Shown piece after piece: positions 3,170 to 25,797 of a stretch of DNA of 31,919 nucleotides. The translations under genes and the position numbers were made by a program. Below the pieces are notes generated by a model that saw only the letters and a list, made by a program, of their open reading frames with translations, was not told the DNA's origin and ran no database searches. The first letter of the stretch is position 1; every line of letters begins with the position of its first letter. The DNA comes from a virus: IMG/VR virus record IMGVR_UViG_3300037070_002158, positions 1-31,919 of that record. One strand, given 5' to 3'.

Positions 3170-3379
3170 TTAATGACGTTTAATTTTCTTTTCGAGTATT
3201 CCGTTAGATACTTCCTGTTCGGTTTTAGTGAAGTTTGGTTTTCCGGTATCGCCTAAAAATATAAATTCGTAATACCTACGACCACCTTGCCAAAATTCTG
3301 CCCGGTACTTTTCGCCTCCGATGGTTACGACTTCGTTGTTGCCTAATCTCGGATAGATATTTATGATTATTGGCTTCAT
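3170..3379 (-). CDS. Hypothetical protein
   Basis: A 69-residue protein with alternating hydrophobic strands and a basic C-terminal tail. Its ATG overlaps the upstream gene's TGA (ATGA). It belongs to the tightly packed series leading down from the helicase gene. No motif recognised. Confidence 0.5.
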   Translation of the reverse strand: MKPIIINIYPRLGNNEVVTIGGEKYRAEFWQGGRRYYEFIFLGDTGKPNFTKTEQEVSNGILEKKIKRH

Positions 3380-3708
3380 ATTGGTAAATTTTGTTTAAGG
3401 TTTTCAATCTCTTTATTTTGTGCCTCAATTATTTGTTGTTGCCTCCAAATATTATTTTCAAGATCAGTAATTATATTTGCGGCTTTTTGAGATTCTTTGA
3501 GTAAAAATATATTACCATGGTAAATTTTATTCATGTACTCTATGCTTTTTTCTACGTATTCAATGACTTTATCTTGTTCCGAGTAGTCAGCGTTTGGCGA
3601 CTTTAATTTAGCCTCTGTAACGCGATTAAATAGCCTTCCTTTTACGTAGGTTAAAAACCCTTCTATTTCTATTGAATCTAATAAACTAAATTGTAAAATG
3701 CTTTTCAT
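3376..3708 (-). CDS. Coiled-coil hypothetical protein
   Basis: A 110-residue protein whose C-terminal third (about residues 75-108, ending ...IIEAQNKEIENLKQNLPI) has heptad spacing of a coiled coil. The start overlaps the helicase gene stop as TAATG, so it is coupled to the replication block. A replication accessory role is possible but unproven. Confidence 0.55.
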   Translation of the reverse strand: MKSILQFSLLDSIEIEGFLTYVKGRLFNRVTEAKLKSPNADYSEQDKVIEYVEKSIEYMNKIYHGNIFLLKESQKAANIITDLENNIWRQQQIIEAQNKEIENLKQNLPI

Positions 3709-4718
3709 TAAAATGGATCTGTTTTATCTGCAAATAATTTGTCGTTAATTGGCTGCGTAAAATCTGTATTAGGTTTTATTGTGCTTTCGGATAATCTTTT
3801 CGGTGCTATACTTTCCAAAGTTTCGCAGGAGTATAGTTGTTGTGAACCTTCGTAGGAATAATACCTATTCTTTTGCCAATCATAAAATATAGAACGTGTA
3901 CCAATCTTTGCAACTCCCTTAGGTTTGGCCTTTTGAATAATTACGTGCGTTTCATTTTCTGCGTATGGCATTCCTTGGTCGTCTTTTAAAAATGTCGGAG
4001 GCCTCCAAAGCATTATCATTGTGAATCCCCTCCTTTGCCACGTTCGGCCTCCTGCCCATTCGTTTGGTAGTGCAAAAGGCGTGTATCTTTTTTTACTATC
4101 GGGATCAATGACCGCCTTTACATCTGCCGTGTGATTTACAAGTATGTCTATCCTGTTATTCTTTTTCGAGCTTATACGACATTGTTTTAAGGCGTGTGCT
4201 AAATATTTATCCTCCCTGCCTCCGAATAGTTCAGTTTCATCTTTAATGTCGTTAAATGGATCAAAAACGGTAGTATCGAATTTAATTTCTAATTCCTTTT
4301 CGCATTGTGAAACGCTGGCGTAAAATTCATCAATCGTAAAATCATTGTCATGGTTTGCAATTATGAAGTGTTGAGATACAAAATATTCGGCTTGCATTTT
4401 ATCTTTTTCATTAGCCCAATCGTATGGCTTTTGAAGGTACTTATGTAGTAATTCATTAAAAATATGCTCCACATTACCACCTTCTCCGCAATAAATAAAG
4501 TGCTTCCATTTATGGGTAATGCTTGCATTCATTAATATTTCGAGCGTAAACTCTGTTTTACCTGACCCCGGACTACCTGCAATAAATAACGGATACCCTT
4601 TTTTTAGCCCAACGTACCCATTTAACGAAGCTATCCCGGTCTGCTTAACATCTTTTAACCCATGCTTAGCAAACTGCTTTGTTTCGTTTATTTTATCTTC
4701 TAACCTAAAATATTTCAT
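3708..4718 (-). CDS. RecA-fold replicative helicase (DnaB-like C-terminal domain)
   Basis: A 336-residue ATPase. Walker A is GSPGSGKT at 48-55, preceded by LKKGYPLFIAG as in DnaB/RepA-type hexameric helicases. Walker B is the hydrophobic strand FDTTVFDPF at 147-155. ILVNHTADV (about 192-200) sits where the sensor strand of this fold is expected. The N-terminal DnaB domain is absent, as in many phage helicases. The upstream genes are a loader candidate and a DUF6291-like protein, with the stop of each gene overlapping or abutting the next start. I infer it unwinds the phage replication fork. RadA/KaiC-like ATPase is the main alternative. Confidence 0.7.
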   Translation of the reverse strand: MKYFRLEDKINETKQFAKHGLKDVKQTGIASLNGYVGLKKGYPLFIAGSPGSGKTEFTLEILMNASITHKWKHFIYCGEGGNVEHIFNELLHKYLQKPYDWANEKDKMQAEYFVSQHFIIANHDNDFTIDEFYASVSQCEKELEIKFDTTVFDPFNDIKDETELFGGREDKYLAHALKQCRISSKKNNRIDILVNHTADVKAVIDPDSKKRYTPFALPNEWAGGRTWQRRGFTMIMLWRPPTFLKDDQGMPYAENETHVIIQKAKPKGVAKIGTRSIFYDWQKNRYYSYEGSQQLYSCETLESIAPKRLSESTIKPNTDFTQPINDKLFADKTDPF

Positions 4719-5087: not shown

Positions 5088-5742
5088 TGTTTGATTTTAT
5101 TTCGTTTATAATTTCATTAAATTTTTGATCCAAAACTTCCAGGTCTTTGTTTTTATAGTATTCAGGCAACCTTAAACATATAGTTTTAAATGTATCAATT
5201 ACCGTTTTGTCCCCTATTTCGTTGCCTGCGCTTTTAACGACTGTTTTTATTTTATCAATAATTGATTTTAACGCCTTGCCTTTTGCTCCTGAAAAAGTCC
5301 ACCCTTGTTTAAATTCATCCAGCCAAAAATTTTTGCAGTCCACGAATTCAGGTTGTGGAGCTTTTTTTGCTCCACCTTTAGTACTATGTTTTATTTTATT
5401 ATCAATTACACTACCAATAACAATATCTATAACAGGTTTTGTGGGTTCTGAAATAACCTGATGGGTTTCTGTGGGTTTCTGTGGGTTTGGTGGCCTACCT
5501 CCGTTTTTCCCATTTTCTCTACTGTTTTCGGCTCTTTTCTCCCACTTCTTTAAATCCCTTTTCAACGTGTGCTGAATGTCGATAAATGATAATTCGGTAA
5601 TACGATCAGGAGGTTTTGGATTTAAATCATTTATATATCTAAAAAAATGCTTTATCAATCTTCCAGCCTCATCGTCTTCTAATGCTTCAAATTTTTCAAT
5701 CCAATCAGCATAAACAATAACCTTATTTTTATCTTCTGCCAT
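5014..5742 (-). CDS. DUF6291-like phage replication protein
   Basis: A 242-residue protein. The N-terminus (VIVYADWIEKFEALEDDEAG then RLIKHFFRYIND) matches the DUF6291 pattern common at the head of phage replication operons. A Gly/Pro/Asn-rich linker (about 77-92, ENGKNGGRPPNPQKP) leads to a C-terminal helical domain of about 100 residues. By position it could be the origin-binding or primosome protein. It overlaps the loader gene by 74 bases, a long overlap that suggests co-translation. Confidence 0.6.
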   Translation of the reverse strand: MAEDKNKVIVYADWIEKFEALEDDEAGRLIKHFFRYINDLNPKPPDRITELSFIDIQHTLKRDLKKWEKRAENSRENGKNGGRPPNPQKPTETHQVISEPTKPVIDIVIGSVIDNKIKHSTKGGAKKAPQPEFVDCKNFWLDEFKQGWTFSGAKGKALKSIIDKIKTVVKSAGNEIGDKTVIDTFKTICLRLPEYYKNKDLEVLDQKFNEIINEIKSNNGTGTTKDSSGKPISKYAPQNFTD

Positions 5743-5744
5743 TA

Positions 5745-5987
5745 TTATTCGTTATAAAATGTACTATTTTCATTTTCGTGATCCATTGCGCAATCATCGC
5801 AGCAAAAAGTTGTTTCGATATAATTTATTTCTCCCGATCCACCACAAACGTAACATTTGCAATATCCAGTACCATTAAAATCTATATCCCTTGTGCATTC
5901 ACAAATTCCATCATCGCAATTATGGCAACGGTAATAAGATTTATAGGATTCGAATTTTGACTGGCAATGAGCGCAAATTTTTGGCAT
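5745..5987 (-). CDS. Cysteine-rich zinc-binding protein
   Basis: An 80-residue protein from the ATG at 5987; the frame is open back to a TTG at 6008, but that codon lies in the U-tract of the upstream terminator-like hairpin. It has CAHC, CHNC, CKCYVCGGSG and CCDDC, about a dozen Cys, pointing to two or more zinc sites. It is the first gene after the kissing-loop leader and precedes the replication genes by 2 bases. Role unknown; a DNA-binding replication accessory is a guess. Confidence 0.6.
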   Translation of the reverse strand: MPKICAHCQSKFESYKSYYRCHNCDDGICECTRDIDFNGTGYCKCYVCGGSGEINYIETTFCCDDCAMDHENENSTFYNE

Positions 5988-6000
5988 GGTAAAATGTATT

Positions 6001-6048
6001 AAAAACAAAAACGCCCCTAAATTGCGTGCTGGCGCAAAAAAGAGGCGT
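6001..6048 (-). terminator. Intrinsic terminator-like hairpin just before a start codon
   Basis: On the minus strand: ACGCCTCT pairs with AGGGGCGT (8 pairs, one G-U), a TTT/TTT internal loop, then TTGCG-CCAGCA-CGCAA, followed by TTTTTGTTTTT. It ends 14 bases before the ATG at 5987, so it would attenuate rather than end the operon. Its hexaloop CCAGCA is exactly complementary to the loop of the hairpin at 6089-6104. Confidence 0.65.
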
Positions 6049-6386: not shown

Positions 6387-8606
6387 CTAAAATAAAGTTA
6401 AAACAGAGTTTTTTTCTTCAACAAATGATTTGTGATTTTGTTCGTTGATTTTAAAATATGATTCTTTTAATTCAATTGATATGCTTTTTCGGTTCATTCT
6501 GATTGCCGAACAACCCTCAGAGCCTATGCCTCCAAATGGACTAAAAACGGTTTCCCCCTCGTTTGAATAAAGATGCAATATTCGTTCAATGGTATCCAAT
6601 TGTAACGGACAAATATGCTTTTCGTCGTTTCCATCACGCCCGGATCTGTATTGTAATGTTCGGGAGTAGTCAATATCCATCCAAACTGGAGAAGCGTATT
6701 TTTGCCATAAATCCACCGGCAAATAATCGGGCATTGATTCGTCTTTATCTTGGTGGGTAATTGGTGTTTTATTGTCCCCTTCATTTCTGAAAAACAAAAC
6801 ATAATCCGGGATTCCAACCCTTGACATAACGCTATCTTTTTTAATTGTTTTATGAAGCAATCCTAATGCCTTAGTGCGTGTCATTTCAATTACAGGGGAT
6901 TTCCATAATGTAACCCGTGAATGATAAACAAATCCTTGTTCCTGGAACCAATCAATTAACATACCGCTAAAATCTCTTAATCCAATATACCCTTCTTTAC
7001 CTTTTTGTATTGGTAAGTCCATACAATGGATTGCGCAAATCCTACCCGGTTTTAAAATCCTTTTTATTTCCGGGATAAGAAATTTAAAATGTCTTTCAAA
7101 TTGGGTGTAATCCGAAACGTTGCCCATATCTTCTTCTTTGTCAGAATATACATATAATTCAGCGAATGGGGGGCTAAATACAGTAATATCTGCAATATTA
7201 TCAGGAAGTTTTTTTGATTCGGTTACGCAGTCCCCATTCATTAAATGGTACTGATCTGTTTTGATTTCTTTATTCATAATTTTAACTTTAGATTTTGCTT
7301 TTTTATAATTGGTTTCTGCTGAATATTTAGCCATTTCTGCAATGCGTTCTTTGTGCTGTTTTTCTTTTTCAAGAATGGAAGCCCGGACGTTTAACTGACT
7401 TTCAGGAACCAATAAATGAACGGTTACTTTCCTTTGTTGACCAAAACGATAACAACGTCTAACAGCTTGGTAAAATGCTTCAAATTTAAAATCATAAGCC
7501 ATAAAAACCATTTGATTGCATTGCTGATAATTCATACCAAATGATGCAATAGATGTTTTAGTTACAAGCGTATTAAATTCGTTTTTAGCAAACCCGTTGA
7601 GGTGTTTAGCTTTATATTCAGGAGTATTTGAACCTTGAACATTTATTGATCCCTGCAAACTTTTTGCGATTAAATCCGTTTCATTATTTTTTAATCCCCA
7701 AATAATCCATTGGTCAATATTTGATTCAACAAGGTCAATAGTTTTTAATAAACGTTGGTCGAATGATCTATTTAAGTCTTGGTGCAAATCGGTTGCGCTT
7801 ACTGAAACGTCCCCAAATAAATTTCCGGTTGTGTTTTCTACTTTAATTATATGCTCCACGTATTCTATTTCAGGTAAATTATATCCCTCAGAATCAAATC
7901 CTAATGTAGCCGGATTATCAATTGCGATACTCCAACTTGATACATATTTCCAAAAGGCATCAGCCGCATGCTTACGTAAACGCCATTTACTTGTTTCGCC
8001 CCCATCATGAACAAAGAACATTGCTAACATTTCAGAATAGCTCATACCTCCTAAAAACTCTGAATGTTGCCCTAATTCCATATGGTCGTTCGGGCTTGGC
8101 GTAGCGGTGCAACAAAGTTTGTATGGGGTTGTTTTAAACAGGTCTAAAATCATAGATGAAGTTTTCCCATCTTTACCCTTTAAAATGCTGCTTTCGTCAA
8201 GAACAACGCCCCCAAATACAGAACAATCAATGTTTTTCAATTGGTCGTAATTACAAATGAAAATATCAGGTTCACCTAAACATGGTGTATTATCAAAATC
8301 ATAATTATAAAGGTCAATGCCGAACTTCACGCCTTCTTCAATTGTTTGCGCCACAATAGCCAAAGGAGCCAATATCAATACTGGCTTATTTGTCTTTAAA
8401 ACGACCTGATGCGCCCATTCTAATTGGCAGAACGTTTTCCCTAAACCACAATCAAAGAACAAAGCAAAACGCCCTTTCATTAATGCCGTTTTTACTCCGA
8501 ATTTTTGAAAGTCCTTTAATGATGGATTAAGAATTGATTCGTCAACTTCAAATCCCGATTCTAAAAAAGTCTTTCGTTTTGTTTCTAAAAAGTCTGTATA
8601 GTCCAT
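6387..8606 (-). CDS. SNF2-type helicase fused to beta-class DNA methyltransferase
   Basis: A 739-residue two-domain protein. Residues about 30-400 are an SF2/SNF2-type ATPase: motif I DCGLGKT (52-58), motif II DESS (137-140), motif III TATP (167-170), and motif VI QAVRRCYRFGQ (380-390). Residues about 450-735 are an amino-methyltransferase with catalytic motif IV SPPF (478-481) first and the SAM motif SPFGGIGS (689-696) last, the permuted beta order. SPPF favours N4-cytosine. Such fusions are known in phages, usually next to VRR-NUC nucleases as here. Likely role: remodelling and modifying phage DNA. The start is 5 bases after a terminator-like U-tract; the stop is TAG. Confidence 0.85.
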   Translation of the reverse strand: MDYTDFLETKRKTFLESGFEVDESILNPSLKDFQKFGVKTALMKGRFALFFDCGLGKTFCQLEWAHQVVLKTNKPVLILAPLAIVAQTIEEGVKFGIDLYNYDFDNTPCLGEPDIFICNYDQLKNIDCSVFGGVVLDESSILKGKDGKTSSMILDLFKTTPYKLCCTATPSPNDHMELGQHSEFLGGMSYSEMLAMFFVHDGGETSKWRLRKHAADAFWKYVSSWSIAIDNPATLGFDSEGYNLPEIEYVEHIIKVENTTGNLFGDVSVSATDLHQDLNRSFDQRLLKTIDLVESNIDQWIIWGLKNNETDLIAKSLQGSINVQGSNTPEYKAKHLNGFAKNEFNTLVTKTSIASFGMNYQQCNQMVFMAYDFKFEAFYQAVRRCYRFGQQRKVTVHLLVPESQLNVRASILEKEKQHKERIAEMAKYSAETNYKKAKSKVKIMNKEIKTDQYHLMNGDCVTESKKLPDNIADITVFSPPFAELYVYSDKEEDMGNVSDYTQFERHFKFLIPEIKRILKPGRICAIHCMDLPIQKGKEGYIGLRDFSGMLIDWFQEQGFVYHSRVTLWKSPVIEMTRTKALGLLHKTIKKDSVMSRVGIPDYVLFFRNEGDNKTPITHQDKDESMPDYLPVDLWQKYASPVWMDIDYSRTLQYRSGRDGNDEKHICPLQLDTIERILHLYSNEGETVFSPFGGIGSEGCSAIRMNRKSISIELKESYFKINEQNHKSFVEEKNSVLTLF

Positions 8607-10569: not shown

Positions 10570-12588
10570 TTAGTTCGGTTTATAGAATGATTGAAACCTT
10601 ATTACTCCTTGGTAGTCAGGAGATTTTAGTAGTCCGTCCCCTTTTCCGGATAAACTTTCCGCTCCGGCTTCGTCAATTACCACCTTTGAATCGACTTCTT
10701 TTGGTACACGGAAGCATATTTGAACTGGAAAATTAACTTTTGCGTCCCCGGTTATTACTTTTACGGAAGCCCTTTGGGTTGCTGCGATTATTCTATATCC
10801 TGACGAACGACCTTTTTGTAAAAGTATTTTAAGGTTTTCCTCCAAAGATTTTTTACTGCCCAACGCTTTGCCTTTTGTGGATGCCGAAACAGCATCCGCA
10901 AATTCGTCAAAAACAATCAAAGTTCGTTTCTTTTTCCCGTGTTTTACAAGCAAATTCATTTCTTCTACCTTTAACTCCATGATAGTTTCGATGTCGTCAA
11001 TATCATTGTAAATAGATATGTTATGACTTTTGTATTTCGTGAACTCGTATTTAGGGTCGAATATTTCAATGCTGTCAAAACCTAACAACTTAGCATATTC
11101 AAGTATTGAAATAATAGCAACCGATTTCCCCGAACCCGTTGATCCGCAAATAAGCATGTGTGGAGTGGATGGATTTTCGGTGTCCCAATAGGCAGCGTTT
11201 CCAAAATTGTCAATACCTAATGGCACTTTACTACCAATTAAATATTTTGGATCAAACAGTAAATCCGACTTCCTTTCCTTTCCTGATTCAACGGCTAAAT
11301 AAGACCTCCCTTCATGCACATAAAGGTCTTCCATCATCCGGATAGATGAAACATTTAATGCGCTTGCAATGTCTAATTTAAAGCGGTGAACGTTTGCTAA
11401 TTTCGTTCCGGCCGAAACATTAAGTAAAAAAGTATCGCTGGAATACCCCTCGAATGTGTGTGCTACGTTCGCAACTATTCCGAGGGTTCGCAATGTATGT
11501 TCTATTTTTTCGTGGTTTTTCATATCTTTATTTGTTAAGTCGTATTCAATAAAATTTGAGGCTCCTTCGCGGAACTTTTTAATAGTTTTAGGGTCGATGG
11601 ATGCGATGGATGCGTCCCGTATTTTCTTTAATCGTTTACCGATCAATTCCTTTTTTGAATCTTGTACGGGAAAGTCGCCAACCTCAGCCATCATTGTCAT
11701 GGCCCAAAACTCATATATTTCTGCTTTGTCTACAAAATTATCATTCTCGTTTATCAGGTAAACATAATCCGGGTTCGATATGGCTTCGATCATTCGTTTT
11801 AGAGGCTCGTATAGCATTGCTTCGTATAATCTCCTTGTATCTTTGTCGATTGCCACTTTAAAGCAACTTAATTGCGGTGATTTGTCCCTGTTTTCGGATG
11901 TTTTGTTTTCAATAAACCACACCTCGTCAACTTTTTGCCCTGTTTTTGTTTCAAATCCAACCACATACGTTATTGCTTGCTTGCCTATTGAAAACTTTAA
12001 ATCTTTTTCGTCTGTAAAAGAGGCTTTCGATTTGTGGTCCGCAATAACAATCTTACCGTCCTTTGTTTTAAAAACTAAATCGATTAACATATGGGCCGGC
12101 AAAGGAATATCTACACCGTTTATTGTTAAAAACTCGTCGATATACATTTCGACTTCTATTAATTCGTCTATCTCAGATTCAAAAATTTGATAATCAGAAA
12201 AGAAGTTTTTTAATAATGCGTTTACTCCCTTGGTTGCTTTGTCGATACAATCGGCTATCGTTGGCGTTGTTTTTTGTAGTTTCCATTTATTCGGGTGAAT
12301 TTCGTTTATGTAAGCATACGCAACTATTTGAAGTGAAGCAAGGTCGTTTATAATACCCTCCTTTAAATCCTTAAAATACAATTCCAATGCTGAGTGATAA
12401 GCTGATCCGGCAACGCTCGACGCTGAATTTTTAAACGGTTGCCTGTAAATGTAGGACATTTCAAACGCTTTTTCATTCCTGGCGAATGCGCTAACTTTTG
12501 AAAAGCTCCAGCTATCGAATAGGTAGTTAGAAAAAAGCTCTTCCATTTGGTCGGTGGAATAATCCCGGTATTTGTGTGGCTGTTTCAT
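10570..12588 (-). CDS. RecB-like exonuclease fused to FtsK-like DNA translocase
   Basis: A 672-residue protein with two machines. Residues about 20-230 are a PD-(D/E)xK nuclease of the Cas4/RecB class: GSAYHSALE (His65), LIDLVF (Asp170), ADHK (Asp184, Lys186) and KQAITY (Gln204, Tyr208). Residues about 345-670 match the FtsK/SpoIIIE motor: a region resembling the FtsK alpha domain at 365-445, Walker A GSTGSGKS (482-489), Walker B LIVFDEF (557-563), ATQR (603-606), and the FtsK-type FPVQICFRV...GAESLSGKGDGLL tail. It directly follows recT (TAATG overlap), the usual place of a lone exonuclease. I infer a motor-driven resection enzyme feeding RecT. Confidence 0.8.
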   Translation of the reverse strand: MKQPHKYRDYSTDQMEELFSNYLFDSWSFSKVSAFARNEKAFEMSYIYRQPFKNSASSVAGSAYHSALELYFKDLKEGIINDLASLQIVAYAYINEIHPNKWKLQKTTPTIADCIDKATKGVNALLKNFFSDYQIFESEIDELIEVEMYIDEFLTINGVDIPLPAHMLIDLVFKTKDGKIVIADHKSKASFTDEKDLKFSIGKQAITYVVGFETKTGQKVDEVWFIENKTSENRDKSPQLSCFKVAIDKDTRRLYEAMLYEPLKRMIEAISNPDYVYLINENDNFVDKAEIYEFWAMTMMAEVGDFPVQDSKKELIGKRLKKIRDASIASIDPKTIKKFREGASNFIEYDLTNKDMKNHEKIEHTLRTLGIVANVAHTFEGYSSDTFLLNVSAGTKLANVHRFKLDIASALNVSSIRMMEDLYVHEGRSYLAVESGKERKSDLLFDPKYLIGSKVPLGIDNFGNAAYWDTENPSTPHMLICGSTGSGKSVAIISILEYAKLLGFDSIEIFDPKYEFTKYKSHNISIYNDIDDIETIMELKVEEMNLLVKHGKKKRTLIVFDEFADAVSASTKGKALGSKKSLEENLKILLQKGRSSGYRIIAATQRASVKVITGDAKVNFPVQICFRVPKEVDSKVVIDEAGAESLSGKGDGLLKSPDYQGVIRFQSFYKPN

Positions 12589-12689
12589 TACGGCATTTCC
12601 TCCCCTTTATTTTCGTTTGAACGCATTAATTCCTTTTTATCTGTTACGTCTGAATAGTCAACGTCTTGGGTGTTGTCAATATATTGCCC
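12588..12689 (-). other. In-frame recT extension after an internal TAG
   Basis: After the TAG at 12692-12690 the recT frame stays open for 33 codons (GQYIDNTQDVDYSDVTDKKE and 13 more) and ends in a TAA that overlaps the ATG of the next gene. The acidic, coding-like sequence and the TAATG junction suggest this is the true C-terminus of RecT. Either the TAG is a recent amber mutation, or it is read through. Confidence 0.6.
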
Positions 12690-13433
12690 CTAGTGTCCCT
12701 TGTCGTCATTTATTACGGCTTGGTCAAGTGTGATGGCTTTTTGCATTTCAATTGACAGTGGAGCGTTTTTTGAAAGATTTAATTTAATTACAGTCTTTAG
12801 GCACATTGCATCAAAATCGTCTTCCCATTTAGACCCTTTTTGTCCCCATGTTTTTGAATATTTTTTACCATGCGCTTTTAGTTTTTCTACGCTCATGTAA
12901 AAAGGTTTTTCAAAACCGTTAATTAATTTGAAGTAGGAAACGTAACCAACGACTGGCTTTGCATTTCTTTCCGCTTCGCTTTGCATCCAATTAAATTGCA
13001 TTTCTCCGGATAAGCGATCGGTAAAAGTTATCTCACCTTCGCGCACATCGGTAGCGTTAATCGTTTGGAACTGTCCGGAACGTTGCGCAAGCTGATTGAA
13101 TCCCTTCGCGCTGATCTGAAATTGAGCGACCGACTTCTTTTGCCATACCCCTTTTTCATCTTGGTATTTTTGATTGTACGGGATTATGTACGCAAACCCA
13201 AGGTTATTATTCAAAGGTAAATCCAAGGTCGCGGCAAGGGCGGCGGCATTATAAATACTCATGGGGTCAGCCGAGGCAAGCAGGGCGTTAGAATTAACTA
13301 TTTGGAGCACCGAAACAATGAAGTTTTGGGCTTTCTTACCAAGCATTTCTTCAAACTTTGCCCTCACATCTTCGCGAGCGAATAGGCTTTTAACGGTTTC
13401 CGGCTTTTTGTCGGGTAAATTAGATTTTGTCAT
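12690..13433 (-). CDS. recT: RecT-family single-strand annealing protein
   Basis: A 247-residue RecT-type annealing protein. The family pattern is clear: SADPMSIYNAAALAATLDLP near the start, NNNLGFAYIIPY, QFQISAKGFNQLAQRSGQF, and a C-terminal AMCLKTVIKLNLSKNAPLS. RecT binds single-stranded DNA left by a partner exonuclease and anneals it to homologous DNA; here the partner should be the nuclease-FtsK protein. The reading frame stops at a TAG and continues in frame for 33 codons. Most RecT proteins have a non-conserved acidic tail, so the shorter form may still work. Confidence 0.85.
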   Translation of the reverse strand: MTKSNLPDKKPETVKSLFAREDVRAKFEEMLGKKAQNFIVSVLQIVNSNALLASADPMSIYNAAALAATLDLPLNNNLGFAYIIPYNQKYQDEKGVWQKKSVAQFQISAKGFNQLAQRSGQFQTINATDVREGEITFTDRLSGEMQFNWMQSEAERNAKPVVGYVSYFKLINGFEKPFYMSVEKLKAHGKKYSKTWGQKGSKWEDDFDAMCLKTVIKLNLSKNAPLSIEMQKAITLDQAVINDDKGH

Positions 13434-18320: not shown

Positions 18321-18890
18321 ATGGCTAAGAGCAATACAGGAGATTTAACGGACAGACAGAAATTCTTTTGCCTGGAGTACCTAAAAGATTTAAACGGAAC
18401 TCAGGCAGCGATTAGGGCAGGTTATTCGGCTAAAACTGCCAATGAGCAATCGGCAAGACTGTTAGCAAATGTTAGTATTCAGGAGTTTACCAAAGGGTTA
18501 ATGGAAGAAAGAGCTAACAGATGTGAAGTTGATGCCGATAAGGTGCTGAAAGAGCTATCAAAGATTGCCTTTTCAGATTTAAGGAAGTTTTATGGTCCCG
18601 ATGGGCAATTGCTGCCAATAGGACAAATAGATGACGAATCGGCCGGTGCTATTTCATCCCTAAAAAGTTATGAGGAAAAATTGCAGGCGACTGACGACGA
18701 TGGCGAACAAATAGTTCAGGGTACCAACAAAGAGATAAGAATGCATGACAAGTTGAAGGCTTTGGAAATGTTAGGTAAGCACTTTGGCGTATTCGAAAAA
18801 GACAACGGACAAAAATCGATGCTTGTTATACCTCAGTTATCCCCCGAACAAATAAAAGCGTTAAATGCTAAAATTGAGCGAAAATACTGA
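18321..18890 (+). CDS. terS: Terminase small subunit
   Basis: A 189-residue protein of the Terminase_2 type: LTDRQKFFCLEYLKDLNGTQ, then AAIRAGYSAKTANEQSARLL (DNA-binding helix-turn-helix), a coiled middle, and LKALEMLGKHFGVFEKD before the C-terminus. It recognises the packaging site and recruits the large subunit. It overlaps the large subunit gene by 26 bases, which fits coupled synthesis. Confidence 0.85.
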   Translation: MAKSNTGDLTDRQKFFCLEYLKDLNGTQAAIRAGYSAKTANEQSARLLANVSIQEFTKGLMEERANRCEVDADKVLKELSKIAFSDLRKFYGPDGQLLPIGQIDDESAGAISSLKSYEEKLQATDDDGEQIVQGTNKEIRMHDKLKALEMLGKHFGVFEKDNGQKSMLVIPQLSPEQIKALNAKIERKY

Positions 18891-20301
18891 TCTTGCCGAA
18901 CTTCCAATTATTAAGCATAAAGCAGACCGCTCTATGCTTTTTTTTACCCGTTATTTCTTTGCTAAGAAGTTTAAGCGAAAGTTTGTGATAGGCGAACACC
19001 ACCAAATCATTTCCGATGCATTAGATAAGGTTTTGAACGGTGAAATCACAAAACTAATCATAAACATTGCCCCCCGTTACGGAAAAACAGAATTAGCCGT
19101 AAAAAACTTCATTGCAAAGGGTTTGGCTCAAAATGCCGCTTCCAGGTTCATTCATTTATCTTATTCCGACGACCTTGCATTAGATAACAGCGACGAGGTG
19201 CGGGAACTGGTAAAGCACGAAGACTACCAACTGCTTTATCCGCACGTTCAAATAAAGCCCAATTCAGATAGTAAAAAGAAATGGTACACAACTGAAAATG
19301 GTGGAGTGTACGCCACAAGCGCAGCCGGGCAAGTTACGGGATTTGGAGCCGGGCAAGTTGATAGCGAAGAAAACGAATTTGATTTTATAACCGAAAGTAA
19401 GAGTAAGTTCGGTGGAGCTTTGATTATTGATGACCCTATTAAGCCGGAAGACGGGGACAGCGAAACGAAACGGGAGCGAATCAATCAAAGGTATGACAGT
19501 ACAATAAAAAACCGTGTAAACAGCCGAAACACTCCTATAATCATAATCATGCAAAGGGTTCACGAAAATGATCTTTGTGGCTTCTTAATTGATAAAGACC
19601 CTGGCGAATGGACTGTATTATCTTTGCCTTGCATTAAACCGGATGGAGCGGCATTGTGGCCATTTAAACACACGTTAGATGAACTCGCTAAATTAAAAAA
19701 AGACAATGAATTAGTGTTTGAAAGGCAGTATCAGCAAGACCCGAAACCTTTAAAAGGTATGCTTTTCCCGGCAAAGGAGTTGCAATACTTTAAACCGGAT
19801 GCGCTTCTTAAATTTGAATCATCACTTGCCTACGCTGACATTGCAGATGCAGGGGAAGACAGCACCAGCGTTCCGGTTGGGCGAAACATAAAGGATTTGA
19901 TTTACGTTACCGATTGGGTGCATGATGAAAGCATAAGCGATGTAACGATACCAAAAGTAAAAGCGATGTTAACGGCTCAATCATCAATGTACATACGTGT
20001 AGAGAGTAATAATATGGGCGCAATGTATGGGCGCAATCTGCAAAAAGAGATTAAAACATGTACAGTTTACCCGGCTGTTTCAACATCCAACAAACACACC
20101 CGTATAATGATGGAGGCGGCATTCATTATGAAGTACTGCCGATTCTTATCCCCTGAATTCCAAAGTGACGAATACAAAAAAGCCATGAAAGAGCTTACAA
20201 GCTACCTAAAGAATGGTAAAAGCAAGCATGATGACGCTCCGGATGCGTTAAGCGGACTTGCCATGTTTATTCGTGGTGTTCTGCCTCATTTGTATAGATA
20301 G
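18865..20301 (+). CDS. terL: Terminase large subunit
   Basis: A 478-residue packaging motor and nuclease. The ATPase has Walker A APRYGKTE (69-76), Walker B ALIIDDP (185-191) and the coupling strand IIIIMQR (225-231). The nuclease domain has YADIAD (Asp325/Asp328), RVESNN (Glu380) and DDAPDA (Asp456-460), the RNase H-like metal ligands. Length and order are normal for siphovirus TerL. It acts at the portal vertex, whose gene is inverted downstream. It stops at TAG followed directly by TAA. Confidence 0.9.
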   Translation: MLKLSENTDLAELPIIKHKADRSMLFFTRYFFAKKFKRKFVIGEHHQIISDALDKVLNGEITKLIINIAPRYGKTELAVKNFIAKGLAQNAASRFIHLSYSDDLALDNSDEVRELVKHEDYQLLYPHVQIKPNSDSKKKWYTTENGGVYATSAAGQVTGFGAGQVDSEENEFDFITESKSKFGGALIIDDPIKPEDGDSETKRERINQRYDSTIKNRVNSRNTPIIIIMQRVHENDLCGFLIDKDPGEWTVLSLPCIKPDGAALWPFKHTLDELAKLKKDNELVFERQYQQDPKPLKGMLFPAKELQYFKPDALLKFESSLAYADIADAGEDSTSVPVGRNIKDLIYVTDWVHDESISDVTIPKVKAMLTAQSSMYIRVESNNMGAMYGRNLQKEIKTCTVYPAVSTSNKHTRIMMEAAFIMKYCRFLSPEFQSDEYKKAMKELTSYLKNGKSKHDDAPDALSGLAMFIRGVLPHLYR

Positions 20302-21589: not shown

Positions 21590-21943
21590 ATGAAAAAACT
21601 TATCCCATTATTACTGCTTTTTGTAACATTAAACGGATGCAAAAAAGAAGAGCATAAACATATTAAGGAAGTTAGCTACCATTGCTACACAGATCAAGGA
21701 AAAGCTGTATTTAAGTACGTAGACCGCCAAGGTAGTTGGGTGACGTTACCGTTAAACAGAAAAACGACCGATTTAACAATCGAAACGAACGAGGATGATT
21801 ATCATTTTATACCTTCGCTTGTATCGACCGGCCCGGATAGTTTATTTTTGTCCGCATCTTGCAACGGTAAATCAACTGAAAATAAATTCAGATCCGCAGG
21901 CGGAACGAATACGATTACCGTTGAACTGGAAAAATTGCGTTAA
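21590..21943 (+). CDS. Phage lipoprotein
   Basis: A 117-residue protein with a lipoprotein signal: MKKLIPLLLLFVTLNGCKKE, lipidation at Cys17. The mature domain is predicted beta-rich with two further Cys. Phage lipoproteins often block re-infection by masking receptors; that is a family-level possibility, not shown here. Its stop overlaps the stop of the convergent portal gene by 4 bases. Confidence 0.65.
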   Translation: MKKLIPLLLLFVTLNGCKKEEHKHIKEVSYHCYTDQGKAVFKYVDRQGSWVTLPLNRKTTDLTIETNEDDYHFIPSLVSTGPDSLFLSASCNGKSTENKFRSAGGTNTITVELEKLR

Positions 21944-23178
21944 TCAGCTATTTCAGAATCTTTGAATAGCTTGTACCTTGCTTTACCTTCTGACTCTGTG
22001 ATTAGTCCGGCTGTTATTGCTGCCTGGATATTAGAAATCTCAATAGCTTCCATTTCTGAAACTACCTTTTTATCCGCTTGCATAGCCTCCACATGGCTAT
22101 AATCTAAGGTTAAATACGAGCCATCGGTGAAATTAAAGAATGATCCAAGCGTTTGACATAAGCTATCAGCCATTGGTTGTATGGCATCGGTATAACCTTG
22201 TTTTGTGGCATCTTTAATATCTTGACTTGAAAACCCTTCCATTTCAGAGCTGAAAATGTTTTTATTCAAATTGTATGCATCACATATAGTGTGCTTGTTT
22301 GCTTTGATTTGCTCTAATAACAATAGGCTTTCCGTTGGGTAGGTAGTTGGAACCCACTCAGTGCCACCATCGACAAATTTAACCCGGCCTTTTTTGTCGT
22401 CACCAACGCCATACGTGTTAGTGAAATCATTTTCCTGCTCTAATCTTCTTTCCGGAGTGATAGGCAATGCACCTGCGCCATCCTTGGCCGTCAACTTAAC
22501 AAAGCCTAACGCCCCCATTTCTCCCGAAATAACGTTTAAAAAGTCGTAGGCTAACTTTGTGTTAGTTATAGGGTATTGAAGTGATTTAAGAGGGGAAACA
22601 CCTACTATTGGATTATTGATATCATTTATCTTACTCCAAATAATTTCGTTCGGCTGAAATATTCTTTTCGTTGTGCCATCACTATATTCGTAATGCTTAA
22701 CAATCCCAGATATATCCGTTTGATCAAAGAATTTGCCCGTTAAAACAGGTGTTAAGTATTCCGATGAAATGGATTGCAATTTGCTTGGAACGCCTTTAGA
22801 TAGCACAGAAACAACCGGAGCGTAAATGTATTGATTCCCGAACGTTGATAGCTGGAACATATAATTACGAAGGAACTCGTTCTCTGAACTGAATGGTGTA
22901 GGCTTGTTTAAAAGAGCAACATAAGGGCTATTCTTTATTTCTTTGCCATCCTTTGTTTTATGCCGGAACACTCCATTGCTGAACATATCGGACTTCTTTG
23001 TAATGACAAGATTTAATTCAGGAACTTCACTAACGAGCTTGGAAGGTATGTCGGACGTATAGATAGCTCCTTTAGTTCCGATGCGTACAGTTTTCGTTTT
23101 AAAGAATGCTTTTTCTTGCGCTTTGCGTCCAAATCCGAAAAAACTTCCAAGTCTATCAATAAAATTATTATCTTCCAT
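21940..23178 (-). CDS. Portal protein, HK97 type, inverted
   Basis: A 412-residue portal-family protein: N-terminal SFFGFGRKAQ, SPYVALLNKPTPFSSENEFL, LSTFGNQYIYAPV, a conserved middle PNEIIWSKINDINNPIVGVS, and SLLLLEQIKANKHTICDAYN before the stem/crown helices. Length is normal. Twelve copies should form the packaging channel and neck. It is the only minus-strand gene in the rightward block, convergent with a lipoprotein gene and divergent from the head operon. A minus-strand TACATTTG about 70 bases upstream is its likely promoter. Confidence 0.85.
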   Translation of the reverse strand: MEDNNFIDRLGSFFGFGRKAQEKAFFKTKTVRIGTKGAIYTSDIPSKLVSEVPELNLVITKKSDMFSNGVFRHKTKDGKEIKNSPYVALLNKPTPFSSENEFLRNYMFQLSTFGNQYIYAPVVSVLSKGVPSKLQSISSEYLTPVLTGKFFDQTDISGIVKHYEYSDGTTKRIFQPNEIIWSKINDINNPIVGVSPLKSLQYPITNTKLAYDFLNVISGEMGALGFVKLTAKDGAGALPITPERRLEQENDFTNTYGVGDDKKGRVKFVDGGTEWVPTTYPTESLLLLEQIKANKHTICDAYNLNKNIFSSEMEGFSSQDIKDATKQGYTDAIQPMADSLCQTLGSFFNFTDGSYLTLDYSHVEAMQADKKVVSEMEAIEISNIQAAITAGLITESEGKARYKLFKDSEIAD

Positions 23179-24354: not shown

Positions 24355-25797
24355 ATGAAAAACGTGAAAAACAAAAAAGCTCCAGGCGGAATGCGTGGCA
24401 ATAAATTAAAATTAGAAGCAAGAAATAAACATGTATTCATGTTCGCATTCGGTTTGTTCGCATTCCTTGTATGTGGTGCAATTACAGGTGATTTCTTTGT
24501 AGGCGCAGGGTTGGCCTCGTTGGCGGCATTCGTTCCTGTAGCATTTAAAGAAGATCCAACAAAAACAGCAGAGGAAAACGCAATTGCAAAGATTCAAAAC
24601 GAAATTGCAAACGCATTGGGAAAAGCAGATGACTTAACAAAGGCGGAGATTAATGCATTAAAAGAATCCTTAGATGCATTAGTTAAAAACGATGTTATCG
24701 TAAAATCAAAAGATGTAATGGCTGAGCTAATAAAAATGGCTGGCGAAATTGCTGCTTTAAAAGAAGTCGGAAACGGTGGCGCATCCAAATTGTCATTCAA
24801 AGCCCAAATAGTTGATTTCATTGTAAAAAATAAAGATGAAATTAAAAGCATGCTAAAAAAGGGTACCGGCACTATTGAGATTGAATTAAAAGCGGTTGCC
24901 GACATAACAACAGGTTCAGCGATTAACGTCGGTACAGTTCCTACCCAATACGGGGAAACAACTGATCCGCAAATTGTTGGAAATTGGATTGAGGGATACA
25001 CAACCACATCTAACACAAACTCTCCAAACTATCCATACACAGAGGTTTTGCCTAAAGATGGAAATTACGCATTCTTAGCAGAGGCTGCAACAAAACCGCA
25101 AATCGACTTTAAAATGGAAACCCGTTTCGCTACGCCTGTAAAGGCGGCCGCATGGGAGAAGTTGACAGAGGAAGCAATGGATGACATCCCACGAATGAAC
25201 GATTTGGCTAATCAAATCCTTTTGAAAAAACACAACATTTTCAAACAAAGAGGGATTATTTCAGGTGATGGAATTTCACCAAACCCGAAAGGAATTTTAG
25301 AGTATGGCCGCGCGTTTGTTCCTGGCGATATGGCTGGAAAGGTTCAGGCTCCTAACTTTATGGATGTGATTAACGCTGCTATTGCAGATATGAGAACCAC
25401 GCACAACTACCAAGACGAGATACCGTACATTGCAAATGTCGTAATGTTAAATGATATCGACTTCTTTTTAGAGGTTCAATCAGCAAAAGACACAACCGGA
25501 AGACCATTGTTTAATTACAATCCTATCACACAGGTTGCCACTATGGGAAGTGTTGCGGTTATTCCGACACCCGAAATTGAAGCAGGAAATATCTTGGTTG
25601 CCGACGTAACGAAATACAATGTAGTAAACTACAAACCGTACACGGTACGTATTGGATGGGTTAACGACGATTTCATTAAAAATCAATTTGTAATCCTTGG
25701 CGAATCAAGATTTTACGGATTCGTTAAGAAGTTGGATGAACAAGCATTCATTTACGATTCTATCGACACCATCAAAGACGCATTAAGATTAGTATAA
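24355..25797 (+). CDS. Major capsid protein, HK97 fold, with hydrophobic N-terminal hairpin
   Basis: A 480-residue capsid protein. Residues 70-190 are helical like a scaffold (delta) domain; from about 195 the fold matches HK97-type capsids (NVGTVPTQYGETTDPQIVGN..., FATPVKAAAWEKLTEEAMDD, GISPNPKGIL, and a C-terminal FVILGESRFYGFVKKLDEQA). Residues 27-44 and 47-64 are two strongly hydrophobic helices (FMFAFGLFAFLVCGAIT, FVGAGLASLAAFVPVAF), which is unusual for a capsid. They would be removed if the protease cuts the N-terminal domain. A GC hairpin follows the stop. Confidence 0.8.
   Translation: MKNVKNKKAPGGMRGNKLKLEARNKHVFMFAFGLFAFLVCGAITGDFFVGAGLASLAAFVPVAFKEDPTKTAEENAIAKIQNEIANALGKADDLTKAEINALKESLDALVKNDVIVKSKDVMAELIKMAGEIAALKEVGNGGASKLSFKAQIVDFIVKNKDEIKSMLKKGTGTIEIELKAVADITTGSAINVGTVPTQYGETTDPQIVGNWIEGYTTTSNTNSPNYPYTEVLPKDGNYAFLAEAATKPQIDFKMETRFATPVKAAAWEKLTEEAMDDIPRMNDLANQILLKKHNIFKQRGIISGDGISPNPKGILEYGRAFVPGDMAGKVQAPNFMDVINAAIADMRTTHNYQDEIPYIANVVMLNDIDFFLEVQSAKDTTGRPLFNYNPITQVATMGSVAVIPTPEIEAGNILVADVTKYNVVNYKPYTVRIGWVNDDFIKNQFVILGESRFYGFVKKLDEQAFIYDSIDTIKDALRLV

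Follow-up and report, generated by a model that had tools for sequence, protein, structure and literature searches.

What would a phage do with a nuclease and a DNA motor joined in one protein and encoded beside an annealing-protein gene? The question is raised by the window, by which I mean the whole stretch of DNA analysed, a virus record of 31,919 bases that bears phage terminase, portal and capsid genes. On its minus strand a single intact open reading frame (10570-12588) encodes a protein of 672 residues, and the gene upstream of it is recT (12690-13433, minus strand). A nuclease gene likewise adjoins the annealing-protein gene in the lambda Red (Exo-Beta) and RecE-RecT systems, and the known partners of annealases are stand-alone, motor-less exonucleases (YqaJ-like, DUF3799 and RecE; PMC8093625). 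I argue that the fusion is probably a resection nuclease driven by ATP, comparable to HerA-NurA, on which interchangeable annealing proteins would dock by means of a short C-terminal tag.

Domain structure of the fusion protein

The first-pass annotation described a Cas4/RecB-type nuclease and an FtsK-type motor in one protein of 672 residues, and both halves of the single reading frame are matched by Pfam and PHROG profiles. The profile search that it proposed as a check on the N-terminal half does find a nuclease there: Pfam PDDEXK_1 matches residues 26-237 above its cut-off (E 4e-9), and a PHROG exonuclease family matches residues 27-231 (E 5e-12). The other half is matched by FtsK_SpoIIIE (Pfam, above the cut-off, residues 454-495, E 6e-7), by a PHROG FtsK family (residues 359-669, E 2e-43) and by FtsK in a PDB profile search (E 1e-37). 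An AlphaFold model made with 39 homologues reaches a pLDDT of 86 and a pTM of 0.50, so the domains themselves are well modelled but their mutual arrangement is not confidently predicted.

The nuclease domain, delimited by PDDEXK_1, conserved residues and fold, occupies residues 14-298 (11695-12549, minus strand). Over 240 residues of this region a structural aligner matches the nuclease of AdnA-AdnB (Z 16.8), and the Cas4-family ACE1 and Dna2 are among the Foldseek matches. H65, D170, D184, K186 and Q204 are invariant in the 39 homologues and Y208 is conserved in at least 90% of them; the domain thus has both the fold and the core residues (D, D-x-K, Q-x3-Y and an upstream His) of a RecB/Cas4-type PD-(D/E)xK nuclease. 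The Cas4/AddB/AdnB branch of this family carries a four-cysteine Fe-S cluster in the nuclease domain. No such conserved cysteine set is present here, there being no invariant cysteine in residues 1-330 of the 39 homologues; the only two in the protein, C481 and C625, both lie within the motor.

The motor comprises an FtsK alpha domain (residues 355-434; 11287-11526, minus strand; Pfam FtsK_alpha, E 1e-6, above the cut-off) and a beta or RecA-like domain identified by Pfam, PHROG and fold (residues 450-672; 10573-11241, minus strand). Conservation marks out a Walker A motif, GSTGSGKS, at residues 482-489 (11122-11145, minus strand) and a Walker B motif at residues 557-563 (10900-10920, minus strand), in which G482, G485-S489 and the D561-E562 pair are invariant in the 39 homologues. 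These residues and those of the nuclease are the ones that the first-pass annotation had picked out. With its alpha and beta domains and both Walker motifs this is an FtsK/SpoIIIE motor; residues 356-672 match FtsK with a Z of 33 and 30% identity, and the motor also resembles HerA structures (Z 17-20). FtsK proper, the chromosome segregation protein, has in addition a gamma domain for sequence recognition, but Pfam finds none in the fusion, which stops where the beta domain stops and in which the N-terminal position is held by the nuclease, with no other N-terminal match.

Distribution of the fusion

The same one-gene fusion is found in about 75 further full-length copies, mostly from Bacteroidota prophages and phages. 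The count of the domain pair suggested by the first-pass annotation comes to 43 viral loci, out of 45 found by scanning viral contigs with the fusion protein, that span into both halves, and to about 34 further loci in bacterial genomes, nearly all Bacteroidota. Among the prophages with the fusion are those of Tenacibaculum, Chitinophaga, Flavihumibacter, Dysgonomonas, Chryseobacterium, Flavobacterium and Muribaculaceae. One homologue with 44% identity comes from a Verrucomicrobiota genome; a handful of short contigs assigned to other phyla may be mis-binned.

Could the two halves in fact be separated by a frameshift, as the first-pass annotation had allowed? This is ruled out by the single reading frame in about 75 further full-length homologues, in which the halves remain joined; the only homologue with a frameshift is L038. 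In another locus (L362, 3763-6684) an intein-like insert with an HNH-like segment sits between the G and the S of the P-loop, so that Walker A reads GATG|CLSAD...VHN|SGKS around it. Inteins typically occupy sites that cannot be lost, and the insert therefore fits a functional motor. Judged by these reading frames, the fusion is real and not a chance joining.

Both halves come from known families, and pairs of annealase and exonuclease are likewise familiar. The one-piece combination of a RecB-type nuclease with an FtsK motor, like its part as the constant partner to a variety of annealing families, was found in none of the sources searched: among annotated phages no record matches the protein over as much as 80% of its length, and a search with just the nuclease half has zero matches there at E 1e-3; the plasmid collection holds FtsK motors only; curated NCBIfam and PADLOC have no model for the fusion and match the motor alone; and the open-access literature yielded no paper on it.

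Annealing partners and the missing exonuclease

Which genes accompany the fusion? The genes upstream of the about 75 fusions form 11 clusters, and in most loci a recognised or structurally supported annealing family lies directly upstream. By profile these partners include RecT, the RecT-like phrog_561, Sak4-like ATPases (AAA_24), ERF and Rad52; Bet, phrog_3657 (putative Rad52 fold) and others add to them. That RecT is one of many interchangeable partners had escaped the first-pass annotation. On a tree of 77 full-length fusions, that of the window included, the partner family changes at least 23 times, and in two loci (L022 and L024) the fusion genes are almost the same but the annealing genes beside them come from different families.

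The largest cluster, phrog_3657, has no named function. A second structural aligner places its model nearest to Rad52, Sak, Mgm101 and Red-beta at Z 5-7.8, and a Foldseek search of the PDB with the model returns nothing below E 0.001; the model is suggestive of a Rad52-fold annealing protein. Profile comparison of phrog_3657, or of the family around L003, with RecT finds no domain similarity; in the L003 family the tail segment alone aligns with RecT, weakly.

A YqaJ exonuclease is present in 0 of 24 records with the fusion but in 9 of 26 records that have the same annealing families without it, which indicates that the fusion replaces the stand-alone exonuclease (the families tested were YqaJ and PDDEXK_1 only). 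Nor did a profile search of the fusion records find a second PDDEXK_1, although this absence is weak because the genome search with PF12705 also missed the nuclease of the window itself, which hmmscan found. The RecT nearest to that of the window (84% identity) belongs to a locus without the fusion (L286), and there a stand-alone nuclease-like gene lies near recT. Within the phage annealase-exonuclease pair, the fusion fills the position of the exonuclease.

The same observations bear on whether the protein is a recombination enzyme at all, since it might be a motor for packaging or segregating DNA whose endonuclease trims or destroys host DNA. Motors of the FtsK-HerA family do package DNA in some membrane-containing viruses (PMC7824862), and PHROGs files phage FtsK-like genes under host takeover. 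However, this phage has terminase, portal and capsid genes of its own (18321-18890, 18865-20301, 21940-23178 and 24355-25797), and the coupling to many annealing families together with the exclusion of YqaJ points to recombination. I regard a packaging role as very improbable.

A C-terminal tag shared by unrelated partners

What would allow such different proteins to work with the same nuclease-motor? Fusion partners tend to end in [Leu/Met]-Pro, a feature that the first-pass annotation missed and that is cut off by a TAG codon in the recT of the window. The strict form of this tag ends 63 of 84 fusion-partner tails and 0 of 115 tails of the same families without the fusion (p 6e-34), and a looser form 77 of 84 against 3 of 115. 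Leu or Met stands at position -2 in 80 of these 84 distinct tails, and 64 of them finish with Pro. Among 19 distinct tails from new contigs that had been held out, 13 fit the strict form and 17 the loose one; one of the two failures (L325) is a short upstream gene that resembles none of the known annealing proteins. All these counts assume independent tails, an assumption that does not hold. On the phrog_3657 tree the fusion changes 15 times and the tag 16 times, the two changing together, and among strongly supported independent pairs about 5 of 6 agree and 0 go against, a result that falls short of significance taken alone (sign test, p 0.06).

The association has exceptions on both sides. 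The fusion partners in L023, L054/L057 and L360 have no tag, and two annealing proteins without the fusion end in GKLL (L153, 4986-6041; L160, 4983-5906). L153 has a stand-alone YqaJ nuclease, and in L160 a 328-aa nuclease-like gene lies directly downstream of the annealing gene. Enrichment is also seen for a Lys-rich helical element that precedes the tag (36 of 82 against 10 of 120), though it is not general. A terminal tag shared across unrelated annealing families was not found in open-access papers.

One might suppose that the fusion is a resection nuclease and the tag a mere by-product of translational coupling, with DNA constrained at the overlapping stop and start and hitch-hiking with the fusion gene at each swap of the annealing gene. 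Most pairs do overlap as CCATGA. Moreover, in the newest swap of partners, that between L022 and L024, the identical DNA starts just upstream of the terminal Met-Pro codons; the shared DNA takes in these last two codons, and hitch-hiking can therefore contribute. Yet the tag is rare where genes overlap elsewhere in these loci: [LM]P terminates 3 of 97 such pairs, one of the three being itself an annealing protein (L035), against 46 of 59 fusion pairs. The codons also vary, the Leu being encoded by all six (TTA, CTG, TTG, CTA, CTT and CTC) and the Pro, where there is no overlap, by CCG, CCC, CCT or CCA. Finally, the tag is present where the partner is not adjacent, as in L035, whose annealing gene lies 1.6 kb from the fusion with genes between and still ends QMP, and in L053, where the distance is about 0.2 kb and the end is TLM. 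It is the amino acids and not the DNA that appear to be kept, and I consider the by-product explanation unlikely.

A different explanation starts from the likeness of the tag to the ends of single-strand binding proteins (SSBs). An SSB-like (D/E)-L-P end might mimic or hook the SSB system and bind host or phage repair proteins, with the fusion merely co-occurring. The SSBs of two fusion phages end ...DDDLPF and ...PDDLPF, some annealing proteins end VDLP or VELP, similar to SSB tails minus the final Phe, and a phage Sak4 is recruited by the SSB tail NDYPPF (PMC5928155). But that final Phe, characteristic of SSB tails, is missing from the tag, the strict tag is absent from all 115 tails of the same annealing families without the fusion, and an SSB occurs in only 2 of 24 fusion records; this explanation is, if anything, a little less likely than the preceding one. 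In phages that lack the fusion, Sak4-like proteins often have a tail of another type, which is acidic and SSB-like (DDDPFA...; L238:5001-5939, L241:5001-5939, L254:5001-5903).

I lean towards the view that Bacteroidota phages use a portable docking code, in which a constant nuclease-motor is combined with a [Leu/Met]-Pro tag on unrelated annealing families. The tag could also bind some other component that accompanies the fusion. If the code is as proposed, the tag would identify annealing proteins beyond the reach of sequence search, namely phrog_3657 and the families around L003, L007 and L033. The tagged upstream proteins of these last three (5294-6001, 5183-5998 and 3350-4057, respectively) are candidate new annealing proteins; none has a Pfam match, and that of L033 matches a PHROG of unknown function.

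The recT gene of the window

How does the window fit this pattern? Its RecT, of 247 aa as read to the TAG at 12690-12692 (minus strand), is a clear member of its family (Pfam RecT, E 8e-39; phrog_148, E 6e-65) and passes the cut-off of NCBIfam TIGR00616. The first-pass annotation had it coupled to the fusion by a TAATG overlap. The recT gene is real and the overlapping frame exists, but as normally read the gene terminates 101 bases upstream of the fusion start without overlapping it, and the overlap is reached only beyond the in-frame TAG. There the RecT frame continues for 33 codons (12588-12689, minus strand), which would run ...VTDKKELMRSNENKGEEMP if the TAG were read through, to a TAA that overlaps the ATG of the fusion. 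This stretch ends ...KKELMRSNENKGEEMP and contains the Met-Pro tag of the family, so that with its TAATG it resembles the usual C-terminus of a fusion partner. Direct overlap (ATGA, TAATG or TGATG) is common in the homologous loci, and this type of coupling is therefore genuine for the family.

Recoding of TAG throughout the phage was considered and rejected as improbable, because TAG is the ordinary stop of 7 of the 39 open reading frames of at least 100 aa in the window. Either the RecT of the window has no tag, or it is tagged by read-through, or the TAG is a mutation, an assembly error or a strain polymorphism. A true nonsense mutation would mean that the system is decaying in this phage and that RecT works untagged or not at all, a reading that concerns this window alone and is compatible with a docking tag in the family at large. 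The TAG codon itself speaks for decay, as elsewhere in the window TAG is an ordinary stop. However, the 33 codons beyond it still encode a Met-Pro tail of the family type and the TAATG overlap, the fusion gene has no defect, and the same picture would result from read-through, from polymorphism between strains or from an error in sequencing or assembly. Decay is a serious possibility, though less likely than not.

Proposed mechanism and comparison with known systems

FtsK motors form hexamer rings around double-stranded DNA. By this likeness, the alpha-beta motor of the fusion very likely forms a ring and would use ATP to travel on double-stranded DNA, starting at an end, while the RecB/Cas4-type nuclease that precedes it would cut one of the strands of the passing DNA and leave the other single-stranded. 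The product of the upstream gene, the annealing protein (RecT in the window), would be delivered to this single strand by docking of its tag on the nuclease-motor, and the fusion would supply the resection step of phage recombination by single-strand annealing. Because such docking would use a short tag and no domain-domain interface, phages could swap in an unrelated annealing protein and keep the same nuclease-motor. I infer the nuclease and translocase activities, strand polarity, hexamer formation and docking of the tag on the fusion; physical contact between annealing protein and fusion is suggested by the association of the tag with the fusion gene.

Of the known systems, HerA-NurA of archaea and Deinococcus offers the closest parallel, resecting the 5' strand by an ATP-driven process that leaves a 3' tail (PMC9960219). 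In both cases a double-strand translocase of the FtsK-HerA superfamily is joined with a nuclease. HerA and NurA are two separate proteins, however, NurA being the nuclease, whereas the fusion unites a RecB/Cas4-type nuclease and an FtsK alpha-beta motor in one phage polypeptide encoded beside an annealing protein. A HerA-type motor with a NurA-fold nuclease is not what the fusion contains, and the comparison is one of function only.

The first-pass annotation had likened the protein to RecBCD. Both halves are there, as is the position of the exonuclease, and RecBCD, AddAB and AdnAB do join a nuclease domain of the same family to a DNA motor, but the analogy is loose. Those are cellular multi-subunit enzymes with SF1 helicase motors; the fusion is a single phage protein without an SF1 motor. 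HerA-NurA is the better comparison because the motor is an FtsK-HerA double-strand translocase and not an SF1 helicase. Among phage systems, Red-beta binds its exonuclease by C-terminal contacts and also by its N-terminal region, and the C-terminal contacts also serve double-strand recombination (PMC5052646).

If the nuclease is driven by its motor and partners dock on it by two residues, the free exchange of annealing proteins would be explained and annealase-nuclease pairs could be predicted. It would also mean that an FtsK-type motor is apparently used for the resection of DNA ends, as is known for HerA-NurA. Recombineering is built on phage annealing proteins. The exonuclease pairing that enables the use of double-strand substrates is poorly portable between species (PMC8093625), and the fusion could supply a transferable module for double-strand recombination in Bacteroidota.

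Two further genes of the window deserve mention. The portal gene (21940-23178, minus strand) lies on the strand opposite to the flanking terminase and capsid genes, and a gene at 6387-8606 (minus strand) encodes a 739-aa protein in which a SNF2/DEAD-type helicase region is combined with an N6/N4 DNA methyltransferase.
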